Below are positions 202-14,878 of a DNA stretch of 64,000 nt, one piece after another (the stretch's first letter is position 1; the number at the start of each line of letters is the position of its first letter). A program made the translations under genes and the position numbers. Below the pieces are notes generated by a model. It made no database searches, was not told the DNA's origin, and saw only the letters and a program-made list of their open reading frames with translations. Source of the stretch: Neolewinella agarilytica (GTDB lineage: Bacteria > Bacteroidota > Bacteroidia > Chitinophagales > Saprospiraceae); the NCBI RefSeq assembly GCF_900110645.1, contig NZ_FOFB01000008.1, positions 124,001 to 188,000 on the forward strand. Direction: 5' to 3'.

Positions 202-215
202 AGCGAATTTTCGCT
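202..215. promoter_or_regulatory. putative operator AGCGAATTTTCGCT upstream of the SDR gene
   Basis: The 14-mer is a perfect inverted repeat with 6-bp arms around TT. The identical 14-mer lies before fadN (6848-6861), and a 13/14 version lies before the XRE fatty-acyl-type regulator gene (14865-14878). A weak -7-like stretch ends in GACTTTG at about 225-231, just downstream. That would place transcription initiation after 196 and favours the SDR start at 286. Binding by the regulator is inferred, not shown. Confidence 0.55.
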
Positions 216-285
216 AAATTTTTCCGACTTTGCGATGCGGGATAATTCTTCCATTCTCTCATTCCTGTATTCACTCATTCAATCC

Positions 286-1059
286 ATGCCCAACATCAAA
301 GACAAATTCGACCTCAGCGGTCGCGTAGCCATCATCAGCGGAGCTTCCAAAGGTATCGGTAAGGCCATTGCCCGCGGGCTGGCCGAATGCGGTGCCAGCG
401 TCGTCGTCAGCAGCCGCAAACAAGACGCCGTGGATGCCGTTGCGGCGGAGTTCACCGCCGACGGACTTACCGCCACCGGCATCGCCTGTCACGTAGGCGA
501 CGAGGCGCAGCTACAAAACCTGGTCGAGCAGACCATCGCCACCTACGGCGGCATCGATATTCTGATCAACAACGCCGCGACGAACCCGGTCTTTGGTCCG
601 CTCGACCAGATGACCGGCGAAGTCTTCGACAAGGTGATGAACGTCAACGTTCGCGCCTGCATGTTGCTGGCTAACCTATGCAAACCCAGCATGGAAAAAC
701 GGGGCAAAGGCTCCGTGATCAACATTGCCTCCGTGGAAGGCCTCAAGCCTTCGCCGATGATGAGTATCTACTCCGTCAGCAAAGCCGCCCTGGTCATGCT
801 CACCCAGAGCCAGGCGCGGGAGTGGGGAAGTGACAATATCAGAGCCAACGCCATTTGCCCGGGGCTGATCCAAACCAAGTTCAGCGCCGCGCTCTGGCAG
901 AATGAGCAAATTCTCGACCACTTCGTCAGTCAACTTCCCCTGCAGCGTATGGCACAGCCGGAGGAGATGGTTGGCCTGGCGCTCTACCTGGCCAGCGACC
1001 TGGGGAGCTACTCAACGGGTGGTGTCTTTACGGCGGATGGGGGGCATTTGATCGGGTAA
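286..1059 (+). CDS. SDR-family oxidoreductase (DHRS4-like)
   Basis: This is a classical short-chain dehydrogenase/reductase of 257 aa, a normal family length. The cofactor loop SGASKGIG is at residues 18-25, NNAA (for NNAG) near 95-98, a catalytic Ser near 149, and the YSVSK catalytic Tyr/Lys at about 162/166. The segment after NNAA (TNPVFGPLD) resembles the DHRS4-like carbonyl reductase branch, which often sits among acyl-CoA genes. The frame is open back to 196, but the start at 286 fits the SDR N-terminus and lies after the palindrome at 202-215. It should catalyse NAD(P)-dependent oxidation or reduction of a hydroxy/keto substrate. The palindrome suggests co-regulation with fadN-fadA. The exact substrate cannot be read from the sequence. 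Confidence 0.85.
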   Translation: MPNIKDKFDLSGRVAIISGASKGIGKAIARGLAECGASVVVSSRKQDAVDAVAAEFTADGLTATGIACHVGDEAQLQNLVEQTIATYGGIDILINNAATNPVFGPLDQMTGEVFDKVMNVNVRACMLLANLCKPSMEKRGKGSVINIASVEGLKPSPMMSIYSVSKAALVMLTQSQAREWGSDNIRANAICPGLIQTKFSAALWQNEQILDHFVSQLPLQRMAQPEEMVGLALYLASDLGSYSTGGVFTADGGHLIG

Positions 1060-1075
1060 TGAGTGTCCGAACCCC

Positions 1076-1344
1076 GACCACGGAGTGGTCCAACATCCTT
1101 AGCCCCGGGTGCAGTCGCAAAGCGACGAAATCCGTGACAAGGATGCTCCTCCTCCTTGACCACGGAGTGGTCTAACATCCTTAGCCCCGGATGTAGTCGC
1201 AAAGCGATGAAATCCGGGGTAAGGATGCAAATGTGTTTGCGCGGCGCTTAGCGCCGCCATCCCAAGACATACTCTCCTTGCGTGGGGTAAAGTCCACTTC
1301 GTGTCCTTCACCCCACGCTAAGGATATTAGACCACTCCGTGGTC
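1076..1344. repeat. REP-like palindromic array (two direct units, one inverted) filling the SDR-GMC intergenic gap
   Basis: GACCAC-GGA-GTGGTC palindromes occur at 1076-1090 and 1158-1172, and in inverted form (GACCACTCCGTGGTC) at 1330-1344. The first two head units of about 82 bp that continue with TAACATCCTTAG or CAACATCCTTAG and a hairpin around GTCGCAAAGCGAC. The second unit folds further through CCCCGGAT and ATCCGGGG. The third unit is inverted, with stem GCGTGGGG/CCCCACGC. A palindromic head plus a second hairpin in alternating orientation is the layout of REP/BIME elements mobilised by RAYT transposases; no RAYT gene is present in the window. The remaining gap (1060-1374) shows no gene. 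Confidence 0.75.
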
Positions 1345-1374
1345 GTCAGTTGATTAGCCCAACAACAAAAATTA

Positions 1375-3003
1375 ATGACTTCTCAGCCTCCCCACTACCT
1401 CATCATCGGCGCCGGCTCCGCCGGCTGTCTGCTGGCCAACCGCCTCTCGGCGAACCCCGCCCATCAGGTATTGCTGATCGAGGCCGGAGGGCCGGTACGT
1501 AACCCCAACATCATTATCCCGGCCGGCTATCCGAAGCTGCACCGGACGTCAGTGGACTGGGGTTACTGGTCGGAACCACAGGAGCAACTCCTGAATCGAA
1601 AAATTTATCTGCCCCGTGGCAAAGTACTGGGCGGCAGCAGCTCCACTAACGCTATGGCCTACGTGCGCGGTAACCGCGCTGACTACGACGACTGGGCCGC
1701 CCTCGGCAACGCCGGCTGGGGCTATGAAGACGTACTTCCCTACTTCTGCCGCCACGAACACAACGTTGATATCGACAATGACTATCACGGCAGGGAAGGA
1801 GAGCTCAACGTCGAATTTCCTAGCCGTTACCGCTCGCCCTTCGCGGCGGCTTTCGTAGACGCTTGCACGGAGACGGGCTTCGAGCGGAACAACGATTACA
1901 ACGGTGCGCAGCAGGCAGGCGCCGGCCTCTTTCAGTTTACGATCAAAGACGGCAAACGCCACTCCGCCTACAGCGCCTTCCTGAAGCCGGTAATGGGTCG
2001 GAAAAACCTGACGGTACTAACGAATACGCAGGTGAGCAAAATACTGATCGACGGCGACCGCGCCGTCGGTGTGCTGGCCGGGAAGCCGGGCAAAAGCCCG
2101 CAGGAGTTTCGGGCCAGCCGGGAGGTGATTCTCTCCGCCGGGTCCTTTGCCTCCCCGCAGTTGCTGATGCTCTCCGGCATTGGCGACCGGGCGGAGCTGG
2201 GGCTGCACGGCATTGAGTGCAAGCGGGATCTTCCGGGAGTAGGTAAAAACCTGCAGGATCACCTGTTTGTGCCCATCGGAGCGCTGTCTCACCAGCAGGA
2301 AGGGCAAAACCATTACGTTCGGCCGGTAGCTATGGCGCGGGCAGCGCTGGATTATTTGCTACTGGGGAAAGGGGTCTTCAATAGCTCACCGCTGGAGGCG
2401 GTGGCCTTTGGCTCCACCTCCCTGAGCCCTGACCGAGTCGACTACCAGTTCCACTTTTCCTCCTTCCACGTAGGGGAGGGCTACGACTCGGATTTCCACA
2501 ACTATAAAACCTTTCCGACGGATGGCGACGGGTTCAGTATTCTTCCCTCACTACTCCGCCCTAAAAGCCGGGGCACCTTGCACCTGTCCCGCAGTACTGC
2601 GGGAGCGCACATCATGACCCCTCCCGTCATCCAACCCAACTTCTGCGCCCACGAAGACGATCGCCAGGTCCTGCTCGAAGCCACCAAAAAGGCCCTGGAA
2701 GTAATGGAAGCTTCCGCCTTCAGCCCTTACCTCAAACGCCGATTCTCCCCGCCCAACGTTAGTTCCGACGGTGCCATCTGGGACCACATCCAACGACAGG
2801 TAGAAACAATCTATCACCCCGTCGGCACTTGCAAAATGGGCCACGACGAGATGGCCGTAGTGGACGATCGGCTGCGAGTCCATGGCGTGGAAGGTCTGCG
2901 CGTGATCGACGCCAGCATCATGCCCACTATCGTAAGCGGCAACACAAATGCGCCGGTGTACATGATTGCGGAGCGGGGGGCGGAGCTAGTCACAAGCACC
3001 TAA
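1375..3003 (+). CDS. GMC-family FAD oxidoreductase (choline/alcohol dehydrogenase-like)
   Basis: The 542-aa protein opens with the Rossmann FAD motif GAGSAG at residues 12-17, followed by an E-A-G ribose-binding end. GMC signature 1 ([14 protein letters not shown]) and signature 2 ([15 protein letters not shown]) are both present. The C-terminal block [10 protein letters not shown] carries the active-site His at about 481, and the closing SGNTNAP segment carries the paired Asn at about 523-525. The family oxidises primary alcohols, choline or polyethylene-glycol-like substrates using FAD. The start ATG follows the REP array directly. The gene is transcribed alone and meets fadA convergently. 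The substrate is not resolvable; betA is the nearest well-known relative, but no betaine genes are nearby. Confidence 0.88.
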
Positions 3004-3025
3004 CCTGACCGCACAAAACGAGAAA

Positions 3026-3052
3026 AGCCCCGAAGCAAAATGCTCCGGGGCT
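3026..3052. terminator. hairpin between the convergent GMC and fadA genes
   Basis: Arms AGCCCCGAAGCA and TGCTCCGGGGCT pair over 12 positions with one mismatch around an AAA loop. The location between two convergent stop codons suits a shared terminator. The flanking T tracts are weak. Confidence 0.6.
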
Positions 3053-3101
3053 CTCCCAGTATAATACAGTTGTTTTGGCGTAAGTATACCAGACAAAGCG
3101 T

Positions 3102-4274
3102 CTAACTCAACCGCTCAAACACCCCCGCAATGCCCTGTCCACCACCTACACAGGCGGTAACCATGCCATAGCGTTGATTCCGGCGGCGCATCTCGTCGAG
3201 CAGCTGAATGGTCAGTTTTGCTCCCGTACACCCCAGTGGGTGGCCCAGCGCGATGGCACCACCATTAGGGTTCACCGTTTCGGGGTCCAGACCGAGAGTT
3301 TTAATGACCGCCAGCGCCTGAGTGGCAAAAGCTTCGTTGAGTTCGGTTTGCTCAATGTCACCAATCTTGAGCCCGGCACGCTCCAGGGCTTTAGGCACCG
3401 CAACGCAAGGACCAATTCCCATGTACAGCGGATCGACCCCGCCTACGGAACAGGAGGCGAGGCGGGCAATGGGTTCCAGGCCGAGTTTCTTTACCATTCG
3501 TTCGCTCATTACCAAGGTGAAAGCGGCACCGTCGGACGTCTGGCTGGAATTGCCGGCAGTAACCACACCTCCCTGCTCGAACACGGCGCGCAGGCGGGCA
3601 AGCCCTTCCATGCTGGTACTACGGCGAACTCCTTCGTCCATCTTAACGATGTGACTCGACTTCACCATTTTACCATCCTTAACGAAAACGTCTTCTACTT
3701 CTACGGGAACGATCTGCCCGTCGAAATGCCCGGCATCAATACCAGCAGCCGCTTTTTCATGACTGCGCACGGAGAAAGCATCAGCCTGTTCCCGTGTCAC
3801 CTCATATTTTTTGGCAACGGCTTCGGCCGTCTTTCCCATACTAACGTGGTAGTTGATGTTGTCCATCGCTGCTTTGTAGCTCGGGCTGAGCTTGTAGCCC
3901 GTCATCGGGATCATGCTCATGCTTTCGGCTCCGCCGGCGAGGTAAATATCGCCGAAGCCCGCCTTGATCTTACCCACTGCCATGGCAATGGACTCCAGCC
4001 CGGAGGCACAGTAACGGTTGATGGTGATACCGGGCACTTCCTTGCCGAGCGCACGCGCGGCGATCAGGCGACCAACCTGCAGGCCCTGCTCCCCTTCCGG
4101 GTTGGCACAGCCAACGATAACGTCGTCGACCAACTTAGGGTCCAGCTCCGGAACGGTGCTCATGAGGTGCTTGATGACGTCTACGGCGAGGTCGTCAGAG
4201 CGGTAATTTTTGAATCCTCCTTTTTTGGCGCGGCCAACGGCGGAGCGAAATCCTTTTACAATATAAGCTTCCAT
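3102..4274 (-). CDS. fadA: acetyl-CoA acyltransferase (3-ketoacyl-CoA thiolase)
   Basis: The 390-aa thiolase carries out the last step of fatty-acid beta-oxidation, cleaving 3-ketoacyl-CoA with CoA. The acyl-accepting Cys is at residue 89 (NRYCASGLES), the conserved His at 345 (GGAIALGHPLG) and the second catalytic Cys at 375 (ACVGGGQG). The NEAFA motif lies between them. Length and motif order are those of degradative thiolases. It lies 124 bp downstream of fadN on the same strand, so the two probably form a fadN-fadA operon. That gap holds a dispersed-repeat copy. No acyl-CoA dehydrogenase gene is in the window, so the pathway is incomplete locally. Confidence 0.93.
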   Translation of the reverse strand: MEAYIVKGFRSAVGRAKKGGFKNYRSDDLAVDVIKHLMSTVPELDPKLVDDVIVGCANPEGEQGLQVGRLIAARALGKEVPGITINRYCASGLESIAMAVGKIKAGFGDIYLAGGAESMSMIPMTGYKLSPSYKAAMDNINYHVSMGKTAEAVAKKYEVTREQADAFSVRSHEKAAAGIDAGHFDGQIVPVEVEDVFVKDGKMVKSSHIVKMDEGVRRSTSMEGLARLRAVFEQGGVVTAGNSSQTSDGAAFTLVMSERMVKKLGLEPIARLASCSVGGVDPLYMGIGPCVAVPKALERAGLKIGDIEQTELNEAFATQALAVIKTLGLDPETVNPNGGAIALGHPLGCTGAKLTIQLLDEMRRRNQRYGMVTACVGGGQGIAGVFERLS

Positions 4275-4320
4275 AATTGAATGCTTGATTTTTTGAATGA
4301 TAGAATGAGTGAATGATTTA

Positions 4321-4340
4321 GCGCGAACGCCGGTGCAAGG
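4321..4340 (+). repeat. dispersed repeat copy between fadN and fadA
   Basis: GCGCGAACGCCGGTGCAAGG matches the repeat with few mismatches and is followed by GGCTTAACGAGCAA. A related tail (TTTTAACGAGCA) follows the copy at 34088, so some copies share a longer 3' extension. Confidence 0.65.
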
Positions 4341-4398
4341 GAAGGCTTAACGAGCAATACTGTTGCAGCATTCGCCCATTCCTCCCTTCACTCATTCA

Positions 4399-6798
4399 CT
4401 AATTGCGCAGCGGCTTGTTGTTCTGCAGCGTGTACTGAATCCGTTCCAGTGTCTTCTGGTTACCCAGCAGGCTCAGGAAGGCTTCCCGTTCCAGGTCGAG
4501 CAGGTACTGCTCGCTCACCTGTTGCGTCTGCGTCAGCTCACCACCACAGAGGATGTTGGCTACGTGGCCGGCAACGACACCGTCGTACTCGGAGATGTAC
4601 TTACCGAGTTTGAATTCATTGATGGCGGTGTAAAGCGCCGCCAGACCAGCACGGCCTAAGACCGTGATGTCTTCCCGGATGCTCGGTGCCACGTATTCTC
4701 TGGAGAGTTCCAGCACCTTACGCTTGGCTTCGCCAATATTGCGTTGCAGGTTGGTTTCCACGAAGTCTTTTCCTTCAATCAGGTAGCCATAGTCAAAGGC
4801 TTCGCTGGCCGAGGTAGACACCTTCGCCGTAGCAATCGTCTGGAAAGCATCAATCAGCGTAGGCATCATCACATCCCCTTCGAAGAACTTATCGGAGGCA
4901 CGCAGTGCCATCTCTTTTGTTCCACCGCCACCGGGGATGAGCCCGACACCAACTTCTACCAAACCGATATAGCTCTCGGCGGCATAAACACCTGCATCGG
5001 CGTGCATACTGATTTCACAGCCGCCACCGAATACGTAGCCCTGCGTGGCTACCACTACGGGTACCTTACAGGTCTTAATCTTCATGTTTAGCTGCTGGAA
5101 GCCGTGAATCAGCCCGTCGAGCTGATCAAATTCCTGCTGCATGGCAAGCATACCGACGTTCATCAGGTTAGCGCCAACGGTGAAGTTCTTGGCATTATTG
5201 CCAATCACGATACCCTTCCAGCCTTCCGCTTCTGCTTTGTCAATCGCCTCACTGATCGCCTCACCGATAGCATCATCAATGCTGTTGGACTTCGAGGTGA
5301 ACTCTACACACATTACCCCGTCGCCGAGGTCATGCACCGTGGCGGAGTCATTCTTAATGATCGGCGCGTTTTCGCGCAGGGTATCCAGAATGATGTAGTT
5401 CTCCAGGCTGGGAACCGGCTTATAGCTCTTCGTTGCCTGGTCGTAGTACATCCGCTTACCCCCCTCAACTTTGTAGAAGGAGTCATGTCCGGCTTTTTGC
5501 ATTTCAAGTACCCAGTCGGCTACTTTGCCGTCCGTTTCTTCGATCATCTTGATGCCTTCGGCCAGTCCGATCTGATCCCAGGTCTCAAATGGTCCGTACT
5601 CCCAGAAGTAGCCGGTGCGCATGGCATCGTCAATGCTGTACAGGTCGTCAGCAATTTCGGGTACCCGGTTAGCGGAGTAAGCGATCAGGCCGGCGAAGTA
5701 TTCGCGGAGAAACTTATTCTCCTTGTCATCACCTCCGACAATAGACTGCATTCTGCGGCCCATGTCTTCAATCATCTTGGCTTTCCCAATGGCGGGCCGT
5801 GGGCGGGTGGCCGGAGCGTACTCCAGTGTTTTCAGGTTGAGGGCATGGATGATGCTCTTGCCCTTGTCATCCCGTTCGCCGGTTTTCTTGTAAAAACCCT
5901 GGCCGGACTTATTACCGAACCACTTATTATCCAGCAGGTGAGCCATGAATTTAGGCTGTTCTTTACCCTTTACCAGCTCGATGTATTCGTCATCAGAGAC
6001 GTTGCTCATCACAAAGCCAGACACCTTGGCACTGGTGTCAATACCCACCAAATCCTGCAGGCGGTAAGTCGCTGTGTTGGGGCGGCCTATAAGGCTGCCG
6101 GTGATGGCGTCGACCTCTTCGATGGTCATATCGTACTTCACCGTCAGGTCCATCATCTGAACACCAGACATAACACCGATTCGGTTACCGATGAAGCCGG
6201 GGGTGTCCTTACACAGTACCGTTTGCTTACCGAGGTAAACATCACCGTAGTGCATAAAGAAGTCTACTACATCCTGCTTCGTGTCTCCGTGGGGAATTAC
6301 CTCGAAAAGGCGGAGGTAACGAGGCGGGTTGAAAAAGTGAGTGCCGCAGAAGTGAGCCCGGAAGTCTTCACTGCGGCCTTCGGCCAGCAGATTGATCGGA
6401 ATACTGGAAGTGTTGGAGGTCACCAGAGAACCGGCTTTGCGGTACTTGTCAACCTTTTCGAAAATCTGCTTCTTGATGTCCAGGCGCTCAATTACCACCT
6501 CAATGATCCAATCACAGTCAGCGATTTTTTCAAAATCGTCTTCAAAGTTACCGGTCGTGATATGGCTGGCCATATCTTTCCTGAAAAGAGGAGCAGGCTT
6601 GGATTTAATGGCAGCAGCCAGGGCACTAACGGCCTGGCTGTTTCTTTTGACGGGGTCTTTTTTTTCCTCGTCGGTAAGATTAAAAGGAACGATATCGAGC
6701 AGGAGCACGTCCAGACCAATATTTGCGAAATGGCAGGCGATGCCTGAACCCATCACACCGGAGCCGAGAACGGCCACTTTCTTAAGGCGATATTGCAT
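4399..6798 (-). CDS. fadN: 3-hydroxyacyl-CoA dehydrogenase / enoyl-CoA hydratase fusion (FadN type)
   Basis: This is a 799-aa bifunctional beta-oxidation enzyme. The N-terminal NAD-binding Rossmann motif is GSGVMGSG at residues 12-19. The HFFNPP segment and two helical dehydrogenase domains follow. A C-terminal crotonase-fold domain has the oxyanion-loop sequence YVFGGGCEISMHAD and the hydratase segment VGVGLIPGGGG. The order dehydrogenase then hydratase is that of Bacillus FadN, opposite to E. coli FadB. It hydrates 2-enoyl-CoA and oxidises the 3-hydroxy product. It is the first gene of a probable operon with fadA. The palindrome at 6848-6861 lies about 50 bp upstream of its start and may control it. 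Confidence 0.92.
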   Translation of the reverse strand: MQYRLKKVAVLGSGVMGSGIACHFANIGLDVLLLDIVPFNLTDEEKKDPVKRNSQAVSALAAAIKSKPAPLFRKDMASHITTGNFEDDFEKIADCDWIIEVVIERLDIKKQIFEKVDKYRKAGSLVTSNTSSIPINLLAEGRSEDFRAHFCGTHFFNPPRYLRLFEVIPHGDTKQDVVDFFMHYGDVYLGKQTVLCKDTPGFIGNRIGVMSGVQMMDLTVKYDMTIEEVDAITGSLIGRPNTATYRLQDLVGIDTSAKVSGFVMSNVSDDEYIELVKGKEQPKFMAHLLDNKWFGNKSGQGFYKKTGERDDKGKSIIHALNLKTLEYAPATRPRPAIGKAKMIEDMGRRMQSIVGGDDKENKFLREYFAGLIAYSANRVPEIADDLYSIDDAMRTGYFWEYGPFETWDQIGLAEGIKMIEETDGKVADWVLEMQKAGHDSFYKVEGGKRMYYDQATKSYKPVPSLENYIILDTLRENAPIIKNDSATVHDLGDGVMCVEFTSKSNSIDDAIGEAISEAIDKAEAEGWKGIVIGNNAKNFTVGANLMNVGMLAMQQEFDQLDGLIHGFQQLNMKIKTCKVPVVVATQGYVFGGGCEISMHADAGVYAAESYIGLVEVGVGLIPGGGGTKEMALRASDKFFEGDVMMPTLIDAFQTIATAKVSTSASEAFDYGYLIEGKDFVETNLQRNIGEAKRKVLELSREYVAPSIREDITVLGRAGLAALYTAINEFKLGKYISEYDGVVAGHVANILCGGELTQTQQVSEQYLLDLEREAFLSLLGNQKTLERIQYTLQNNKPLRN

Positions 6799-6847
6799 GA
6801 ATTATTAAGTTGTATTTGCTAGTAACGCCCTAAGGCGAACAAAAGTT

Positions 6848-6861
6848 AGCGAATTTTCGCT
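6848..6861. promoter_or_regulatory. putative operator AGCGAATTTTCGCT upstream of fadN
   Basis: This is identical to the palindrome at 202-215. It lies 50-63 bp before the fadN start codon. A -7-like TATCTTCG (minus strand, 6871-6864) lies on one side and TAACTTTTG on the other, so a bound protein would overlap the probable promoter. Confidence 0.6.
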
Positions 6862-6917
6862 GGCGAAGATAGTCCTTCAGCGCTGGAGTTGCAATTCGCG
6901 GTGGAAGTTAAGCTTTT

Positions 6918-6940
6918 GGGCGCAGAACGCAGGTGCAATG
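6918..6940 (+). repeat. dispersed repeat copy, intergenic
   Basis: GGCGCAGAACGCAGGTGCAA lies between the divergent fadN and small-lipoprotein genes. Confidence 0.65.
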
Positions 6941-7024
6941 AAATGATGTAATCAGCAAGGTAAAACGCCCTACTCTTTGAGTCACAACTCTGGCCAGGGC
7001 AACCGTTACTATCCTGCCCCGTAC

Positions 7025-7032
7025 TATCTTTG
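7025..7032 (+). promoter_or_regulatory. -7 box TATCTTTG abutting a start codon
   Basis: This is a perfect match to the Bacteroidota -7 consensus TAnnTTTG, ending 5 bases before the ATG at 7038. A transcript from it would have almost no 5' leader. No convincing -33 TTTG is found at the usual spacing. Confidence 0.55.
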
Positions 7033-7037
7033 CTCCC

Positions 7038-7313
7038 ATGCGCCCCTTTTCGCTCCTGCTCTTTCTCCTATGTCTCTCCTGTTCCGTAGAGCAGGAAGAA
7101 GTCAACCTCCGCCTGACCATGGCCGAACGAGACATCGTTGACGCCAGGGTAACCGTCTACATGGACAGTATCCGACGCGTACTCGACACCCTTTGCACCA
7201 ACACTTACGAGGACCGGGTCGCCATTGCAACGGACAGCATCGTCCAGCGACGCCTGGAAGAAGAAGCCCGCCTCCGGGCCCGTATCCCCGAAAACCTGCG
7301 CAATGATCGCTAA
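7038..7313 (+). CDS. small lipoprotein, unknown function
   Basis: A 91-aa protein with a hydrophobic leader and lipobox (LLCLSCSVEQ, Cys near residue 15), so it is probably a lipoprotein. The mature part is highly charged and helical (many E, R, D) with no recognised domain. Its last 11 bases overlap the start of the next lipoprotein gene, indicating translational coupling. It is preceded by a -7 box almost touching the ATG. The gene pair looks like a membrane-associated two-protein unit of unknown role. Confidence 0.65.
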   Translation: MRPFSLLLFLLCLSCSVEQEEVNLRLTMAERDIVDARVTVYMDSIRRVLDTLCTNTYEDRVAIATDSIVQRRLEEEARLRARIPENLRNDR

Positions 7314-7734
7314 GCTCCCTTCACCAGTTTTAATATGGCTCCTGGCGCTACTGGCTCTCTCCGGCTGCGAGCCAGATGTGACAGACTCGAGCATGGTTAT
7401 GGAAGAACGCTTTCAGGATCGAACCCAAGCGCTCACCGCTAAGATCATGAACGACTGCCACAAAGACGTTCTGGAAGCGGCCACCCTCCGCGCAGATTCT
7501 CTGCTCATCAACCGGGCCCGCCGGATGCAACGGATCGAAGGGCGGCCACCCCGCCCAAACCGGCCCGGCGCCCCTCCACCCAAAGCACTCTCGGCCCCCC
7601 TGCCACTACGGCCGCTGTTCCCCTTCGAAATCAGGTATGACACCCTGCTGCAACAGCAACTCCTACGGGATAGCCTGCGGTCGGATAGTATTTCCAGAGG
7701 CCTGCCAGACGTAAACTCTTTCTCGCCGGAGTAA
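7303..7734 (+). CDS. small lipoprotein, unknown function, overlapping the previous gene
   Basis: The chosen ATG at 7303 gives 143 aa beginning with a signal peptide and lipobox LALLALSGCEPD. A longer frame back to 7225 would add residues that mask the signal. The mature part has a charged helical stretch, then a Pro-rich linker (RPPRPNRPGAPPPK) and a second helical end. The ATG lies inside the last codons of the upstream lipoprotein gene. No domain is recognised. A periplasmic partner of the upstream protein is a reasonable guess. Confidence 0.65.
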   Translation: MIAKLPSPVLIWLLALLALSGCEPDVTDSSMVMEERFQDRTQALTAKIMNDCHKDVLEAATLRADSLLINRARRMQRIEGRPPRPNRPGAPPPKALSAPLPLRPLFPFEIRYDTLLQQQLLRDSLRSDSISRGLPDVNSFSPE

Positions 7735-7736
7735 TC

Positions 7737-8135
7737 AAAAGCTGCGCAGCTGCCCCTCCCTCTCTTCCGCCTCCTCTCTCCTCATCTGCGGGAAACAAAC
7801 CAGTCGCGCAGCGACAAAAAATCTGTGCATTAATCGGTGTGAATCCGTGATAATCTGTGGTTAACCCCATTTCCGAACAGCGTCCCTCTGTGCACCTCCG
7901 TGAATCACCTCTCCGCACCTCTGTGGTTAAACCTAAAGCTGCGCAGCTGCCCCTCCCTCTCTTCCGCCTCCTCTCTCCTCTTCTGCAGGAAACAAACCAG
8001 TCGCGCAGCGACAAAAAATCTGTGTATTAATCGGTGTGAATCCGTGATAATCTGTGGTTAACCCCCATTGCCGCGCAGCGCACCTCCGCGCATCACCTCT
8101 CTGCATCTTGTGGTTAAACCTAAAGCTGCGAAGCA
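7737..8135. repeat. tandem repeat of about 190-197 bp (two copies plus a partial third)
   Basis: Each copy begins AAAGCTGCGCAGCTGCCCCT and runs through a pyrimidine-rich stretch, then CAGTCGCGCAGCGACAAA, then phrases built from AATCTGTG, AATCCGTG and CTGTGGTTAA. GCTGCG starts at 7741, 7938 and 8125, giving periods of 197 and 187. The third copy is cut short after GCTGCGAAGCAGCC. The array fills the gap between the lipoprotein pair and the convergent M23 gene. No coding signal is convincing in it. Confidence 0.85.
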
Positions 8136-8161
8136 GCCACTCGAAAACCCTCCCTCAAATC

Positions 8162-9064
8162 CTAGAACCGAATAAACTCCGTTGGGTCCACCGCCTTCCC
8201 TTCATGCCAAAGCTCAAAGTGCAGGTGTGGTCCTGAAGACAATTCCCCCGTATTACCAATGATGGCAATCGCCTCACTGGCCCTTACCCGGTCGCCTACC
8301 TTTTTCAGTAACTGAGAGTTATGCTTGTAGAAGGTAATCAGGTTATTATCGTGCTGAATTCCCACTACGTTACCGTTAGAGCTGGTGAACTCGCTGATGA
8401 AAACAATGCCATCCCTCACCGCCTTGATCGGGGTGTCCTGCGGAGCGAGAATGTCAACCCCCAGATGATCACCGGTCAATTTGAAGCCGGCGCTGATCTC
8501 TCCGTTCACTGGTGCAACCAATAAAAGTTGTGCCAATGGCACATCCGTACTACCGGGCGAGGGAGCCATACCACTACTCCCACGGCTGTTTTCTCCTACC
8601 CGTTCCAGGGCCATCTCCCGGCGAAGTCTTACCTCTTCTTCTGAGAGGGGTACGGGTTCAATATTTGCGGTATCTACTTTAATGCCGCGCTCCTCAATAT
8701 CAGCACTGGTCACCACTTCTCCGTGAATGTTACGCTTCATCGTTTCGATGGTAACGGCCTGTTGTTCCATCTGAGCACCCATCTCATCAATGAGATCTTC
8801 CATCTCATTGAGCTCCTGCCGCTGCACAATGTCTCCGTAGCCCGGAATGTAAGTCCGCAGGGGCGTGTAGGCAATTAATAAGAACACCACAACGGCCACC
8901 AGAAAAATGAGCGTTGAGATGGCCACGTACAGATTGAGCGGGGTCAGGTTATAAGAGCCTACCTCCCGATAGCTTTTCACATCACGGACAACCAGCTGGT
9001 ACTCATCCTTGCTGTTCTCTTTGAAGCGCTGCCAGCGGCCTTGTTTTTCGGTTGTTTCTTCCAT
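8162..9064 (-). CDS. membrane-anchored M23-family peptidoglycan endopeptidase
   Basis: The start at 9064 gives 300 aa beginning MEETTEKQGRW; a longer frame to 9097 has a poor N-terminus. The layout is a short cytoplasmic tail, one membrane helix (YVAISTLIFLVAVVVFLLIA), a periplasmic coiled-coil-like stretch, and a C-terminal M23 domain. The zinc ligands are intact: HLGVD supplies His and Asp, and HLHFE near the end supplies the HxH His pair. Such enzymes cut peptide cross-links of peptidoglycan, or act as LytM regulators when ligands are lost, which is not so here. It is divergent from porW. Confidence 0.9.
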   Translation of the reverse strand: MEETTEKQGRWQRFKENSKDEYQLVVRDVKSYREVGSYNLTPLNLYVAISTLIFLVAVVVFLLIAYTPLRTYIPGYGDIVQRQELNEMEDLIDEMGAQMEQQAVTIETMKRNIHGEVVTSADIEERGIKVDTANIEPVPLSEEEVRLRREMALERVGENSRGSSGMAPSPGSTDVPLAQLLLVAPVNGEISAGFKLTGDHLGVDILAPQDTPIKAVRDGIVFISEFTSSNGNVVGIQHDNNLITFYKHNSQLLKKVGDRVRASEAIAIIGNTGELSSGPHLHFELWHEGKAVDPTEFIRF

Positions 9065-9335
9065 GGGGAAGGGCGTTATTTTTAATCTTAAGCCCACACT
9101 TTGGGTAGGGAGCTTAACGTTTCTTATTGGTTACGGGTGCCTGAAGGCACCGAAAAAGAGTTGATGGACGCAAGTTGTCCATAAGCTTATATGGCCTGTG
9201 GCCTTACCTTTGCGCCCACTTTGCGGTGGGTGTAGTGGTCAGCAAAGATAGCATCCCGTTCCACCTTCCCGCTACGTTTTGGCGTCTTCATCCTGCTTAA
9301 CCCTGATGATGACTGCCTTGATAAATTGAATCAAT

Positions 9336-12335
9336 TTGAAGAAGTTAACGCAATTTTCCCTTCTGCTATTGGCTTTACTGATCCTGGTTACCAGCTGTTC
9401 CTCCACCAAACGGAGAGACGAACAAGGGCCGATCGGTAAGCTGTGGCACAATATGAACTCCCACTACAACGGCTATTTCAACGCCCGGGAGCTCATGACC
9501 GAAAGCTTGCTCACGCTTGATGAGCAGCACGTTGACAATTACACCCAACGCCTGGACATGTTCCCCTTTCTGGAAGTTGATAACCCCAGTATCGTAGGAG
9601 AAGACATGGATATTGCCATTGAGAAGGTGGCCATCGTCGTCAAGAAACACCCCTACAGCAATTGGGTGGATGACAGCTACCTGCTGGTAGGCCAGGCTCA
9701 GCTCATTAAACAAGACTATGAAAGCGCGGAGAAAACCCTCCGCTTTATGGTCAACGAATTCCGGCCCCGGCCAAAACGCAGCAAGAGCAAAGTAAAGAAA
9801 GGGAGCAGTAGTGCTGAAGAACCGGAGGAGGAAGAATACGTCAGCCGGCGGGAAGTAGAATCTAATCCGGAACAAGAGCGCCGCGATCGGCTCCGGGCCC
9901 GAAAGGAAGCTCAAAAAGAGCGGGATAAGATTAATAAAGAACGAGAAAAGGAACGCAAAGCCAAGAAAAAAGAGCGCGAACGGGAACGCAAAGCCCGCCT
10001 TAAGGCCCGGAAGAAAGGCATTCGCCTTCCGCCAGTAAAGCGGGACACATCGGCCCAGGCAGGCCTGGAAAACGAACCCGATCCGATTGAGGAAGAAGAG
10101 GCTGACCTCGGCCCGGTGGGTATGATTTCCATATTCAGCAACAACAGTGACCTTGAAGGAGAGGGCGAAGCCTACGGGAAAAAAGCCGGCAGCTACGTCG
10201 CCAAGCACCGTCCTGCTTTTCAGGAAGGTCGTTTATGGCTGGCCTGGACATTGATCAAGCGCGACAACTTCGACCAGGCCCAGATCATCCTGGAAGACCT
10301 GCGGGCTAACCGCGGCACCTTTGCCGACGTGCGTCGTAAAGCAATGGCCGTTCAGGCATTCCTCTACGTTGAGCAGGAGAAGCTGGAAGAAGCCATCCCC
10401 TACCTCGAAGAAGCTGCGGAGGTAGCCAAAGAGCGCAACGAGCGAGCCCGCTACCACTACATTGCCGGCCAGCTTTATCAGGAGCTGAGCCAGCCATCCG
10501 GTGCAGCCTCAGCTTTTGAGAAAGCCATCGCCGCCCGCCCCAACTACGAACTGGAACTGGGTGCCCGCCTCAACCTGGCCCAGAATGCCTTCCTGAGTGG
10601 TTCCGGCTCCGCAGCTGATGCCCTCAAGAAACTGGAGCGAATGGCCCGGGAGGACAAAAACATCCCCTACGAGAGCCAAATCATCTACTCCATGGCAGCC
10701 ATTGCCCTCCGGAGTGGAGATAAGGAAGCAGGGGCAGAGTACCTGCGCCGTGCGCTGGCCAGCCCATCGGCCGGTCCCGTTCAGCAGCTTGAAGCCTACA
10801 ACCTCCTCGGAGATCTGGCCTATGCCGCCAGTGATTACCTGCCAGCGAAACTCTACTACGATACCACTCTGACCGTCATGGCACAGAGTGACGATCGTTA
10901 CGCCGCCATCAGTCAGCGACGCGATCAACTGTCGGGCATCGCATCTGCCCTGCAGGACATTACCGTAAAGGACAGCCTGCTCCGGATTGGAAGGCTAAGC
11001 GAGGACGCCCGCAACCAGTGGGCCGCCGAGCTGTTCGAACAGCGGCGCGCAGCCGCCGCTCAACCCATCAATCCCGTTGCCTCCGTCGGAGGCCGGGGCC
11101 CCGTAGCAACCATCGGCAACAGCGAGTTCTTCGCCTATAAGCCGTCCATCGTTAAGAAGGGAAAGCGCGACTTTGAGCGCCGCTGGGGCGACCGATCACT
11201 CGAAGACGACTGGCGCCGTTCCAGCCGGACCGACCGGGACATCTTCAGCGACCCGGGCGATGCCGCAGGCAGTAACCCTGACGACACGGATCCGCAGATG
11301 GTTACCGAAGACGAAATTAAAGCGCTCCTCGACGGCGTGCCCACCACCCCCGCTGAGCAAAAGACGATGGAGGTGAAACAGGCAGAAAACTGGTTTAACC
11401 TCGGCCGCGAATACCGTGACCGATTAGAGAACAACCCGAAGGCGCTGGAGGCCTTCGAGACCCTGAACCGACAATTTCCCGGTGCTAACACCGAAGCGGA
11501 AAGCTGGTATTACCAATATCTCATTCATAAAGACATGGGTAATGCCTCCAAGGCTCAGGAGTTTGCCACCAAGCTGGCTGGCCAGTACCGGGGCTCCAAA
11601 TATGCCCGCCTGGCCAACGACCCCAGCTACGCCAGCGAGTTGCTGCAGAAGGACAGCAAGTTGATGCGGGACTACGAGACGGCCTACGCTGCCTTCGAGA
11701 AGGGAGACTTTAAAACAGCACACGAGCTGGCTACTAAGGGCCGGGCCTCTTTGCTGGGGCAGCACCCACTGAAATCCCGCTACGCCCTATTGCTGGCCAT
11801 GACGACCGGTAACACCCAGGGACGAGCTGCCTACATTGCCTCCTTGCGGCAGGTAGTAGCTCAGTTTGACGGAACGCCCGAGCAAACCCGGGCTAAAGAA
11901 ATTCTCCGTCTGCTCGGTGAGTCTGGTGCCCGGCTCCCGGGTCAGGCTGGTGCCCTTGGTGGTGGCTTTAAGGAGAGTATGAAGGAGTTGCATTACTTCA
12001 TCGTCGTATTCGATAAAGAAGACACCGACCTGAACGCCGCTAAGATTAGCGTTTCCAAGTTCAACGCCAAGTACAATAAGCTTGACCGCCTACGGATTAC
12101 CAACTTCTACATCGGTAAAAATAACGACGTGCCCGCCCTGGTACTACGTCGATTCAAGAATGGAACGGAAGCCGTGAAATACCTGAAAAACGCGAAGGAG
12201 CGTGAGCAGGAATTCCTCGATGCCGGTAAGTTCAGCTACGACATCTATGCTGTTTCCCAGAGCAACTACCGGGAAATCCTGAAGCTGCGCTCCGTGGAAG
12301 AATACCGAACCTGGTTCCGCGAAAACTACGAGTAG
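9336..12335 (+). CDS. porW: T9SS-associated TPR lipoprotein, PorW/SprE-like
   Basis: A 999-aa lipoprotein with leader and lipobox ILVTSC (Cys21), followed by the HNMNSHYNGYFNA segment seen near the start of PorW/SprE proteins. These are needed for type IX secretion and, in Flavobacterium, gliding. TPR-like helical repeats fill the central and C-terminal thirds. The only start that keeps the signal peptide is TTG at 9336: an upstream ATG at 9306 in the same frame runs into TGA at 9327. Residues about 145-230 form a very charged K/R/E insert (REKERKAKKKERERERKARL) that looks like a single long helix. The family call is from N-terminal similarity and architecture. Confidence 0.75.
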   Translation: MKKLTQFSLLLLALLILVTSCSSTKRRDEQGPIGKLWHNMNSHYNGYFNARELMTESLLTLDEQHVDNYTQRLDMFPFLEVDNPSIVGEDMDIAIEKVAIVVKKHPYSNWVDDSYLLVGQAQLIKQDYESAEKTLRFMVNEFRPRPKRSKSKVKKGSSSAEEPEEEEYVSRREVESNPEQERRDRLRARKEAQKERDKINKEREKERKAKKKERERERKARLKARKKGIRLPPVKRDTSAQAGLENEPDPIEEEEADLGPVGMISIFSNNSDLEGEGEAYGKKAGSYVAKHRPAFQEGRLWLAWTLIKRDNFDQAQIILEDLRANRGTFADVRRKAMAVQAFLYVEQEKLEEAIPYLEEAAEVAKERNERARYHYIAGQLYQELSQPSGAASAFEKAIAARPNYELELGARLNLAQNAFLSGSGSAADALKKLERMAREDKNIPYESQIIYSMAAIALRSGDKEAGAEYLRRALASPSAGPVQQLEAYNLLGDLAYAASDYLPAKLYYDTTLTVMAQSDDRYAAISQRRDQLSGIASALQDITVKDSLLRIGRLSEDARNQWAAELFEQRRAAAAQPINPVASVGGRGPVATIGNSEFFAYKPSIVKKGKRDFERRWGDRSLEDDWRRSSRTDRDIFSDPGDAAGSNPDDTDPQMVTEDEIKALLDGVPTTPAEQKTMEVKQAENWFNLGREYRDRLENNPKALEAFETLNRQFPGANTEAESWYYQYLIHKDMGNASKAQEFATKLAGQYRGSKYARLANDPSYASELLQKDSKLMRDYETAYAAFEKGDFKTAHELATKGRASLLGQHPLKSRYALLLAMTTGNTQGRAAYIASLRQVVAQFDGTPEQTRAKEILRLLGESGARLPGQAGALGGGFKESMKELHYFIVVFDKEDTDLNAAKISVSKFNAKYNKLDRLRITNFYIGKNNDVPALVLRRFKNGTEAVKYLKNAKEREQEFLDAGKFSYDIYAVSQSNYREILKLRSVEEYRTWFRENYE

Positions 12336-12349
12336 ACGGTAAACCGCAT

Positions 12350-13360
12350 ATGCCTCAAGCCATCATCCATAGCGGTATGCCGCCGTCGCTTCCCGGCCGG
12401 AGGAACCTGCTTTGTGTGCTGGATTGGGGGCTGGGCCATGCTTCCCGTTCTCTGGCTTTGCTTAGGGCGCTGGAAAAAGCCGGCGAACTAACCTTCCTTG
12501 CATCCTGCGGCCGCGCCCGAAAATTTCTGGAGCAGGAACGACCCGATCTGACCGTCTACGAACTCCCCGCCTACGACGTCCGCTACCCCACCGGAAACAT
12601 GCCCCTGAACGTGGGCCTGCAACTCCCCAAATGGCTGCGCACGATTGCCCGCGAAAAGCGACAAACGGCCCGACTCGTGGAAGAACTCAGGATCGACAGG
12701 ATCATTTCCGACAGCCGTTTCGGCTGCTACCACCCGAGGGTGGAATCGGTCATGCTGACCCATCAGTTACACCCCATTTTCAACTTCGGGCCCATGTCAT
12801 GGAGCTACGTGAAGTACCTGCGACGGTTCCGGGAAGTCTGGGTGCCCGACACCGCAGACCGCAAAATGAGCGGCCGGCTATCCGACCCGAAAGGCTATAA
12901 AAAAGTTCGCTTTATCGGTCCGCTCAGCCGCCTGGAGCCAACGAAGCCGGCGCCCGAAAACTGGCGTACACTATCTCTGCTGAGTGGGCCCGAACCCATG
13001 CGCAGCCGGTTGGAAAAAATACTGTTGGGCCAACTTCGCCAGCTACCCGGTCCACATCTGCTCATTCGCGGTGTGCCCGACGAAGAAGAGGTGGTGGAAG
13101 AACACCGTATCGTGGTAAAGCCCTTCGCCGACCGGCAGTTCCTGGCCCGTCATTTACCCATTGCGCAACACATCATCTGTCGCTCCGGCTACAGCACCCT
13201 GATGGATCTGGCTGCTTTGAACCTAAGCGCAAAAATTATTCTGATTCCTACCCCCGGGCAGACCGAACAGGAGTTGCTGGCGCAAACGCAGGTGCAAAGT
13301 GGGGACGCCCTGGCAGCTTTTGCTCAGGGAGAAATTGATTTGGCGGGGCTGATTGGCTAG
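12350..13360 (+). CDS. MurG-like glycosyltransferase-family protein
   Basis: This 336-aa protein starts 14 bp after porW and may be co-transcribed. The N-terminal segment CVLDWGLGHASRSLALLRAL is the glycine-rich donor/acceptor loop of GT-B fold enzymes of the group common in Bacteroidota and archaea. The C-terminal ICRSGYSTLMDLAAL and IPTPGQTEQ segments match the nucleotide-sugar-binding region of MurG-like enzymes. ATG codons at 12350 and 12377 are both possible starts. The acceptor is unknown. A dispersed-repeat copy lies inside the 3' end and encodes LAQTQVQ. Confidence 0.78.
   Translation: MPQAIIHSGMPPSLPGRRNLLCVLDWGLGHASRSLALLRALEKAGELTFLASCGRARKFLEQERPDLTVYELPAYDVRYPTGNMPLNVGLQLPKWLRTIAREKRQTARLVEELRIDRIISDSRFGCYHPRVESVMLTHQLHPIFNFGPMSWSYVKYLRRFREVWVPDTADRKMSGRLSDPKGYKKVRFIGPLSRLEPTKPAPENWRTLSLLSGPEPMRSRLEKILLGQLRQLPGPHLLIRGVPDEEEVVEEHRIVVKPFADRQFLARHLPIAQHIICRSGYSTLMDLAALNLSAKIILIPTPGQTEQELLAQTQVQSGDALAAFAQGEIDLAGLIG
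13279..13300 (+). repeat. dispersed repeat copy inside the glycosyltransferase gene
   Basis: GGCGCAAACGCAGGTGCAAA lies in frame near the 3' end of the gene and encodes AQTQVQ. Confidence 0.6.
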
Positions 13361-13370
13361 TACAGTCTGC

Positions 13371-14840
13371 TCACAAATCCCGCAAGGCTTTTTTCACCCG
13401 ACTGTATTGCTCTCGTTTTTGCACAATGACGGGCTCCGTAGCCCGCTCCTTACAATCCATAATCGGACAGCGTTCGCAAGTGGTGTTCACCACCCGCCTT
13501 GAAATTGCCGGATCATCCGCCCAGCGGATGGTTTCCCTCAGCTTATCATTTACCAGCAAACCAATGGTAAGGCTCACGTTCCGACTGGGATCCGGATAGC
13601 CGGATCGGGCCAGGGTAAGGCAGAGATACTCATCCTCCGTCCCGAAATACTGACTCCGCTGGGCGGAAATACGCATCTCCCCCGCTTTAGAATCCTTCAT
13701 TTCTTCCAGCAGATGAACACTTACCCAGCGGCGGCAGTAATGCTCGAAGAGCCCATTCTCATGCGGCTGATGACGACGATGCAGGTGGAGCTCCTTATCG
13801 ATAGAAAATCCATCAGTAGCCGGCGTATGCATGAACCGCAGGAAGAACAATTCCTTCAGGCCAAAAAACTGTGGCAACACATTCGTAAGCCGCTGGTAGA
13901 ACATCTCCGGCGTAGCATTGAACCGCTGCATAATGTTTTCTACTGCGGATGCACTCCATGTTTCCTGATCAAACAAATCCCGAATGCTCGACACAAAGGG
14001 CTGCAAAGGCACGTGGAGAGCTGCGCTGAAATAGGTCGCTTTACTATGATTGAGCACTTCTTCAAATACCCGGCTCCTGACCAGGCTGCTGGTGTTTGCC
14101 CGCTCGGTCAGATTAAGCTGGTTAAAGCCCAGTTCTTTGCCAAACTGGAAACCCCGCTGGCGGGGGGTAAGGCTACCGTTCAGAAGAAGTTTTCTGCCTT
14201 TTGGTACGTAAACCGAGCGAAATATGGCCAGCTCGGGATGTTCATCCAGGCCGTTGGGCAGAATCTTGTAATCAAAGCGATCTTCCAGCAGGCCCGCAAG
14301 AATGCGCGGGGGAACGGGGCGCACGTCTGGCAAATCATACTTGTCCGAAAACTCATCCACTGCTCTTTCCAGTTCAGGAAAGTAGTTGTCGTTCAGTTCC
14401 AGATAAGAGCGCAGTGCAGCGAAATAGAAGTTCTCCTCCCGCAGAGCATAGGAACGCGATAATTCTAAAAGCGTGCTGATGAAGGCCCCGACGCGCACCG
14501 GTGCCTGAGCAATGATCTCCGCAACTTTGCCCAACTCGATGCCGAATAGCTCCAGGGGGAGCTCATTCAAAAAGTTAGACTGTAATAGCTGGGTAACCGG
14601 AGCGAGATTGCGGCCCAACTCCCCGTTGGTAAGGTCTTTAGCATTCGTGCCGAGGGCCTTGGCGAGGTTTCGAACCTTATCCGCTTTCGGAAACTTTTTC
14701 CCTTTTTCGATCTCATTGAGGTAGGAAAGGGACATCCCCGAACTTTTAGACAAATCGGCAAAGGAAAGCTTCTGCTCCTGGCGAAGCTGCTTTACTTTAA
14801 GGCCAAAGATGATTCTTTCATTCGCGGTCTTAGCGTTCAT
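13371..14840 (-). CDS. XRE-family regulator of the ScfR/RamB/PrpR type (HTH + ImmA/IrrE-like + DUF2083-like)
   Basis: A 489-aa transcription factor. Residues about 12-66 form a Cro/C1-type helix-turn-helix (LSYLNEIEKGKKFPKADKV is the recognition region). The middle corresponds to the ImmA/IrrE-like region but shows GFQFGKELGF instead of the HExxH zinc site, so peptidase activity is not expected. The C-terminus has CERCPIMDCKERA, a Cys cluster like that of short-chain acyl-CoA-sensing ScfR/PrpR/RamB proteins. A copy of the palindrome found before fadN and the SDR gene lies 25 bp upstream of its own start, suggesting autoregulation and control of lipid catabolism. The ligand is inferred to be an acyl-CoA. 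Confidence 0.8.
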   Translation of the reverse strand: MNAKTANERIIFGLKVKQLRQEQKLSFADLSKSSGMSLSYLNEIEKGKKFPKADKVRNLAKALGTNAKDLTNGELGRNLAPVTQLLQSNFLNELPLELFGIELGKVAEIIAQAPVRVGAFISTLLELSRSYALREENFYFAALRSYLELNDNYFPELERAVDEFSDKYDLPDVRPVPPRILAGLLEDRFDYKILPNGLDEHPELAIFRSVYVPKGRKLLLNGSLTPRQRGFQFGKELGFNQLNLTERANTSSLVRSRVFEEVLNHSKATYFSAALHVPLQPFVSSIRDLFDQETWSASAVENIMQRFNATPEMFYQRLTNVLPQFFGLKELFFLRFMHTPATDGFSIDKELHLHRRHQPHENGLFEHYCRRWVSVHLLEEMKDSKAGEMRISAQRSQYFGTEDEYLCLTLARSGYPDPSRNVSLTIGLLVNDKLRETIRWADDPAISRRVVNTTCERCPIMDCKERATEPVIVQKREQYSRVKKALRDL

Positions 14841-14864
14841 AGAGCGCCAATTTAGGGAAATGCT

Positions 14865-14878
14865 GGCGAATTTTCGCT
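14865..14878. promoter_or_regulatory. putative operator GGCGAATTTTCGCT upstream of the XRE regulator gene
   Basis: It matches the fadN palindrome at 13 of 14 positions. On the minus strand it lies just upstream of a -7-like TAAATTGG (14854-14847), which ends 6 bases before the start codon. A bound protein would sit in the promoter spacer, a usual site for repression. Confidence 0.55.

Follow-up and report, generated by a model that had tools for sequence, protein, structure and literature searches.

The Locus

The stretch analysed here comprises 64,000 nucleotides of Neolewinella agarilytica (assembly GCF_900110645.1, contig NZ_FOFB01000008.1, positions 124,001 to 188,000) and is called the window below. 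In it, a short palindrome stands ahead of genes of β-oxidation and of the gene for an XRE-type regulator resembling RamB and PrpR. The symmetric unit of the palindrome is AGCGAA-NN-TTCGCT, with arms of six bases and a spacer of two. Exact copies are found at 202-215 (AGCGAATTTTCGCT) and 6848-6861, and a third copy with one mismatch (GGCGAATTTTCGCT) at 14865-14878. The remaining matches in the window all carry three mismatches. The original prediction, which had placed the palindrome at these three sites and nowhere else in the window, is therefore borne out.

The copy at 6848-6861 lies 50 bases ahead of a fadN-like gene for a 3-hydroxyacyl-CoA dehydrogenase/enoyl-CoA hydratase (4399-6798, minus strand; PF02737, PF00725 and PF00378). 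Downstream on the same strand follows a fadA-like thiolase (3102-4274, minus strand; PF00108 and PF02803), with which fadN would form an operon. The palindrome also precedes fadN relatives in eight other genomes (G123, G167, G179, G161, G099, G092, G591 and G592). The one-mismatch copy is placed 25 bases ahead of the start codon of the regulator gene (13371-14840, minus strand; 489 residues), through which the regulator would act on its own promoter, and is found before many relatives of the regulator.

The copy at 202-215 stands ahead of a gene of the short-chain dehydrogenase (SDR) family (286-1059, plus strand; PF13561, 8.4e-64), and exact copies precede its relatives in G123, G167 and G179. 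The longest open reading frame (ORF) of this gene begins at ATG 196 and the palindrome at its seventh base. Judging by the relatives in G123 and G167, whose starts lie 38 and 54 bases past their palindromes, the start is probably the ATG at 286, 71 bases past the palindrome. About 315 bases downstream of the SDR gene, a choline dehydrogenase-like GMC oxidoreductase follows on the same strand (1375-3003, plus strand); its membership in the regulon is uncertain.

The Palindrome in the Genome

With up to three mismatches allowed, the window alone gives 8 matches where 7.5 are expected, which is not significant, so the significance of the palindrome rests on the exact motif and the whole-genome count. 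The exact motif occurs 17 times in the genome (G000, 6,220,808 bases), always with an A/T-A/T (WW) centre, against 0.07 expected from the base composition of the window and a single copy of the reversed control pattern. Gene starts were taken from simple ORF scoring and are approximate; apart from the ORF-start artefact at 202, none of the 17 falls within a called gene. For the inner core, GCGAAWWTTCGC, 27 copies are found versus 3 for the reversed control, all 27 outside called genes or at their edges. Of the 25 sites with one mismatch, 21 were looked at, and 9 of these lie inside called genes. The palindrome is thus confirmed as a real element of this genome.

Genes behind the Palindrome

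The 27 inner-core sites make up 26 loci, and ten of these lie before a gene that Pfam assigns to a fatty-acid or acyl-CoA family. The targets are acyl-CoA dehydrogenases A (with two sites), B and C, an electron-transfer flavoprotein (ETF) subunit, fadN and the fadA downstream of it, an enoyl-CoA hydratase, an SDR-hydratase pair and the AMP-dependent ligase that diverges from it, SCP2, a fatty-acid hydroxylase and FabH; two enoyl-CoA hydratases are counted among them. Three further loci are likely to be lipid genes: an Fe-S protein with a CCG protein after it, taken here to be of the ETF:menaquinone oxidoreductase type, a candidate FadH-type reductase, whose only Pfam matches are Oxidored_FMN and Pyr_redox_2, and the SDR of the window. 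In a background control of 100 of 138 genes of the same genome without a site, no acyl-CoA dehydrogenase, enoyl-CoA hydratase, ETF, thiolase or short-chain dehydrogenase family had two or more matches, although each could hold one, as most single-match families were not listed; AMP-binding matched one. The expected genome-wide bias of the motif toward acyl-CoA genes therefore holds, by Pfam for 10 of the 26 loci and by our assignment for three more, the other 13 being not plainly of this kind.

The regulator gene is one of these 13. Others encode a 2-oxoacid dehydrogenase E1 alpha, a YiaAB protein (followed by an SDR), two S8 proteases, a protein of the LOG family, a cytidylyltransferase and a TonB receptor, and some cases are unclear. 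The site is kept in G123 and G167 at LOG, YiaAB and one S8 protease, and in G591 at LOG and the cytidylyltransferase; because of this retention, some of these loci are probably real members of the regulon. The operator-like sites of the two S8 proteases stand at L016:5001 and L020:5001, the first being the one shared with G123 and G167. The gene for 2-oxoacid dehydrogenase E1 alpha has an exact operator (L044:4001-4014) 9 bases ahead of its start codon; the figure is likewise 9 in G167, and 7 in G591. Exact operators are also seen near the LOG-family (lysine decarboxylase-like) gene and the cytidylyltransferase gene (L039:5001 and L046:5001), each retained in at least one relative.

The Operator and the Regulator in Relatives

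The original prediction also expected the motif to be conserved ahead of orthologues of the regulator, and this is what was found. Eighty named loci were collected, of which two had too little upstream DNA. With up to two mismatches and up to 250 bases upstream, the operator precedes the regulator in 43 of the 78 left, including those of Neolewinella, Hymenobacter, Pontibacter and Xanthovirga, though not Emticicia, while the reversed pattern precedes none (0 of 78). A set of Saprospiraceae-type regulators, among the named loci between L287 and L333, is without it, and as 6 of 17 such genomes have no exact site at all, a changed operator is suggested there; a search for a shared replacement in 31 of the 35 named loci without the operator gave no common palindrome. 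Elsewhere in the phylum, 19 of the 27 best-scoring loci, from 10 families, carry the operator with any centre before the regulator; the centre is CG in five loci of family f25 and in one of f30. Among 35 regulator genomes of the phylum picked for counting WW-centred sites, 23 hold an exact one.

Motif and regulator also go together across genomes. Among 198 genomes of the order, 61 contain both, 6 the regulator only, 8 the motif only and 123 neither (Fisher 7e-35), so that 67 have a relative of the regulator and 69 an exact motif. In the family of the window the corresponding numbers are 18, 2, 1 and 16 (p 2e-7); neither value is corrected for phylogeny. A relative was accepted at E < 1e-30, and 11 of 78 genomes, with matches to the helix-turn-helix (HTH) only, were dropped before counting; three of the 67 kept are partial matches (G116, G146 and G166). 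The 67 regulator genomes contain 218 sites, the 131 others 8.

Nature of the Regulator

The N-terminal part of the regulator is an XRE-type HTH, for which PF01381, PF12844 and PF13560 all score over their cut-offs, and it is followed by an IrrE-N-like (M78) region (PF06114, 24.9 bits with a cut-off of 22). Strict membership in the RamB equivalog (NF038139 of NCBIfam) was considered and rejected, as the score of 42.7 bits is far below the cut-off of 700. An operator of the RamB type, TTTGC(A/G)AA, was likewise not found, the operator here being AGCGAA-NN-TTCGCT.

A profile of 14 relatives reaches the structures of MtPrpR at E 0.00035-0.00072, with HTH-only proteins ranking higher. A single-sequence phmmer search of the core (residues 140-489) against the PDB gave no match at E 10, and hence the link to PrpR rests on profile and fold. 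An AlphaFold2 model built from 33 sequences (mean pLDDT 79.7) has MtPrpR chains (6cz6, 6cyj, 6cyy and 6d2s) as its PDB fold matches 1-6, with E from 8.7e-12 (6cz6) to 5.4e-10, TM by target of 0.64-0.67 and 18-20% identity, so that the predicted core has the PrpR fold. Cys455, Cys458 and Cys463 fit the pattern C-X2-C-X4-C and are putative ligands of a [4Fe4S] cluster; Cys369 is the likely fourth, as it is kept or lost together with them. All four cysteines are present in 105 of 122 aligned regulators, some of which may be the same species twice, and none of the four in the other 17, all of family f8. Examples of the latter are L158:3095-4591 (plus strand) and L180:1394-2923 (minus strand), and many f8 loci have the operator before the gene.

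Fold and cysteines support the regulator as a distant relative of MtPrpR and RamB, of the ScfR/IsaR kind. The RamB/PrpR-like placement of the original prediction accordingly stands on these two grounds, and it fails against the RamB equivalog model. Binding of CoA esters may be expected from kinship.

Position of the Operator in the Promoter

Promoters of these bacteria carry a -7 consensus of the TAnnTTTG type, by which boxes were scored here, the search being confined to the -7 element. Of 76 oriented sites in seven genomes of the family of the window, 61 have an A directly after the palindrome, and in 15 the last T of the palindrome opens a TAnnTTTG-like box (at least 5 of 6), where random offsets gave a mean of 0.8 and a maximum of 5 in 2000 draws. 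Because the operator overlaps the -7-like box, its place in this family suggests repression.

The promoter of acyl-CoA dehydrogenase A carries two operators in all 11 genomes looked at, 42, 52, 54 or 63-65 bases apart (L037:5001-5078 and relatives). These distances are near whole helical turns (Rayleigh test, p 2.5e-4 for all and 0.01 for the distinct values), with the reservation that the genomes are related and three of them (G582, G574 and G579) were chosen for a close pair. MtPrpR is described as a tetramer (PMC6765138), and Paracoccus RamB as needing two boxes (PMC10370305); in the light of both, bridging of the paired sites by a tetramer is plausible.

Regulator Copies and the Operator Spacer

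The genes behind the operator differ between families, as far as can be told from ten neighbours scanned with Pfam. Malate synthase, aconitase and the regulator are preceded by it in f8, aconitase and the regulator in f14, and fadN, enoyl-CoA hydratase, PEP carboxykinase and pyrophosphatase in f12. A 755-residue neighbour in f8, read from its first residues as isocitrate lyase, proved to be the aconitase. Isocitrate lyase has no match in the six genomes of the genus of the window. In the family, a second regulator is found some 2 kb from the lyase in G099, G186 and G190, and G170 has a second regulator and no match to the lyase.

In the tree, these second regulators belong to a clade of 11, here copy B (G099, G186, G190, G170, G138, G065, G085, G041, G001, G110 and G176; support 100/99), from which 19 sequences of the family of the window, copy A, are set apart with support 100/99. 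Isocitrate lyase is no more than 5 kb from copy B in six of the 11 (G099, G186, G190, G065, G176 and G001). The simplest reading is that an older regulator of acetate and glyoxylate metabolism was recruited, as copy A, to β-oxidation, and a glyoxylate-type regulator may thus have taken over this pathway in the lineage of the window. Support for some deep forks in the tree is weak, and this order of events is accordingly tentative.

The two copies differ in the spacer of their operators. Palindromes were scored strictly, with one change from AGCGAA allowed in each arm and a reach of 400 bases upstream. By this measure, 8 of the 11 copy-B regulators have a spacer of three and none has a spacer of two, while among the other 79 regulators 45 have a spacer of two and none a spacer of three (p 1e-9, an overstatement of independence, as the rows are related). 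The half-site with the wider spacer is AGCGAA in five of the eight, AGAGAA in G099 and G170, and AGCTAA in G186. In six genomes with two copies (G099, G170, G186, G190, G065 and G085), copy B carries a 15-bp form and the other copy the 14-bp form, the latter with one mismatch in G099 and G190; in G138 and G110 the operator of only one copy is visible. Of the 198 genomes, 15 contain the 15-bp pattern AGCGAAWWWTTCGCT, five of them at a copy-B regulator and ten as single scattered sites, with a similar count for the reversed control, and only the copy-B promoters are taken as evidence. The idea that an older operator was recruited for the new fatty-acid regulon and that, after duplication, one spacer base has kept copy A (β-oxidation, spacer of two) apart from copy B (spacer of three) has, in our judgement, an even chance of being right. 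If true, nature would here have insulated paralogues through the geometry of the dimer and not through the bases that are recognised.

Proposed Mechanism and Alternatives

From these patterns we infer a mechanism that extends from binding and autoregulation to repression, ligand, bridging, insulation and the direction of evolution. The regulator encoded at 13371-14840 would bind AGCGAA-WW-TTCGCT and, in the genus and family of the window, would control β-oxidation, its electron-transfer genes and its own promoter. It would act most likely as a repressor, as the last T of the operator is the first T of the -7-like box and the operator would hence fall within the -33/-7 spacer, where a bound dimer would block RNA polymerase until some CoA ester relieves repression. 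Where another operator lies at a distance of roughly four to six helical turns, as in one acyl-CoA dehydrogenase promoter, a tetramer would be able to bridge the two. The older task would be acetate and glyoxylate metabolism, as is suggested by f8, where this operator precedes the regulator, malate synthase and aconitase, and the spacer of three at copy B would keep the regulons apart. We give this explanation as a whole a probability of roughly 0.8. Of the autoregulated fatty-acid regulon in the original prediction, the motif bias toward acyl-CoA genes and its conservation before the regulator are supported; regulator binding, acyl-CoA sensing and the sign of control are predicted.

Several observations weigh against this explanation. 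Half of the loci in the genome of the window (13 of 26) are not plainly lipid genes. The operator is missing before the regulator in 35 of the 78 named loci; of 17 such genomes checked, 11 hold 2-8 exact sites elsewhere and 6 are without any exact WW site, so that another operator, or none, is the reading for these six. In the order, 6 of 67 regulator genomes are without an exact site, three of them (G041, G110 and G176) being holders of copy B. Elsewhere in the phylum, 8 of the 27 best-scoring loci have no operator before the regulator and 12 of 35 regulator genomes no WW-centred site, some of them using the CG centre. The low score with the RamB equivalog (NF038139) and the f8 regulators, which have lost all four cysteines and yet keep the operator, count in the same direction. 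Finally, copy B is not always found by isocitrate lyase, which is on another contig in G138, G085 and G041 and without a match in G170 and G110.

Among the alternatives, the strongest keeps the regulator and the operator and lets the protein activate, or activate as well as repress, the fatty-acid genes. Paracoccus RamB is reported as both activator and repressor (PMC10370305), and MtPrpR as an activator (PMC6765138). Outside the family of the window, moreover, the -7-like box mostly begins 23 or 17 bases downstream of the operator (8 and 7 of 43 sites, in related genomes), which is a possible place for an activator and another point against a general repressor; because of it, repression need not be general and the sign may differ between families. 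In the family of the window, however, the operator overlaps the box, where a bound protein should block the polymerase. We regard this alternative as unlikely.

A different transcription factor might bind the palindrome and have the XRE regulator merely as one of its targets, since co-occurrence alone does not identify what binds. Against this, 10 families outside the order have the operator ahead of the regulator gene, sometimes as the sole exact WW site (as in G435 and G273), genomes without the regulator are nearly siteless (8 sites in 131), and the spacer varies with the clade of the regulator itself; we regard such a factor as very improbable. That the palindromes are chance or a non-regulatory repeat, with which the loose pattern in the window alone would agree, is contradicted by 17 exact copies for 0.07 expected, outside genes and before related genes in relatives, and may be dismissed.

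Comparison with Known Systems

The analysis names a regulator, its operator and a gene list for the cultured genus Neolewinella. Beyond the original prediction, it adds that the type of regulator belonging to this operator sits beside glyoxylate genes elsewhere and that the operator of a sister clade is one base wider. Three comparative cases are thereby offered: the apparent takeover of β-oxidation by a glyoxylate-type regulator, related regulators with operators differing by one spacer base, and family f8, in which all four putative Fe-S ligands are lost and the operator is kept. In a literature search of partial coverage, which leaves room for a prior description, no paper on this operator or on such a fatty-acid regulator of Bacteroidota was found, and we know of no described fatty-acid repressor for this phylum. 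Fatty-acid regulators of other phyla, of the FadR, FadP and PsrA types, are alike in controlling β-oxidation genes; they have GntR or TetR folds, unlike the XRE/PrpR fold here.

The regulator of acetate metabolism, RamB, of the ScfR family (Corynebacterium, Mycobacterium and Paracoccus), shares the HTH and the PrpR-type core, and relatives of the present regulator are found near isocitrate lyase or malate synthase. Paracoccus RamB resembles the present system in its two boxes per promoter (PMC10370305). The differences are an NCBIfam score far under the cut-off, a mycobacterial box given as TTTGC(A/G)AA (PMC6765138) compared with AGCGAA-NN-TTCGCT here, and a regulon of β-oxidation in a genus whose six genomes have no isocitrate lyase match.

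The methylcitrate-cycle regulator MtPrpR shares the fold and C-X2-C-X4-C with a fourth cysteine; its Fe-S clade was named IsaR by its authors and its imperfect box, TTTGCgAA (PMC6765138), contains GCGAA as the operator here does. It differs in an identity of about 19% over the fold, in the arrangement and spacing of the half-sites and in the target pathway.

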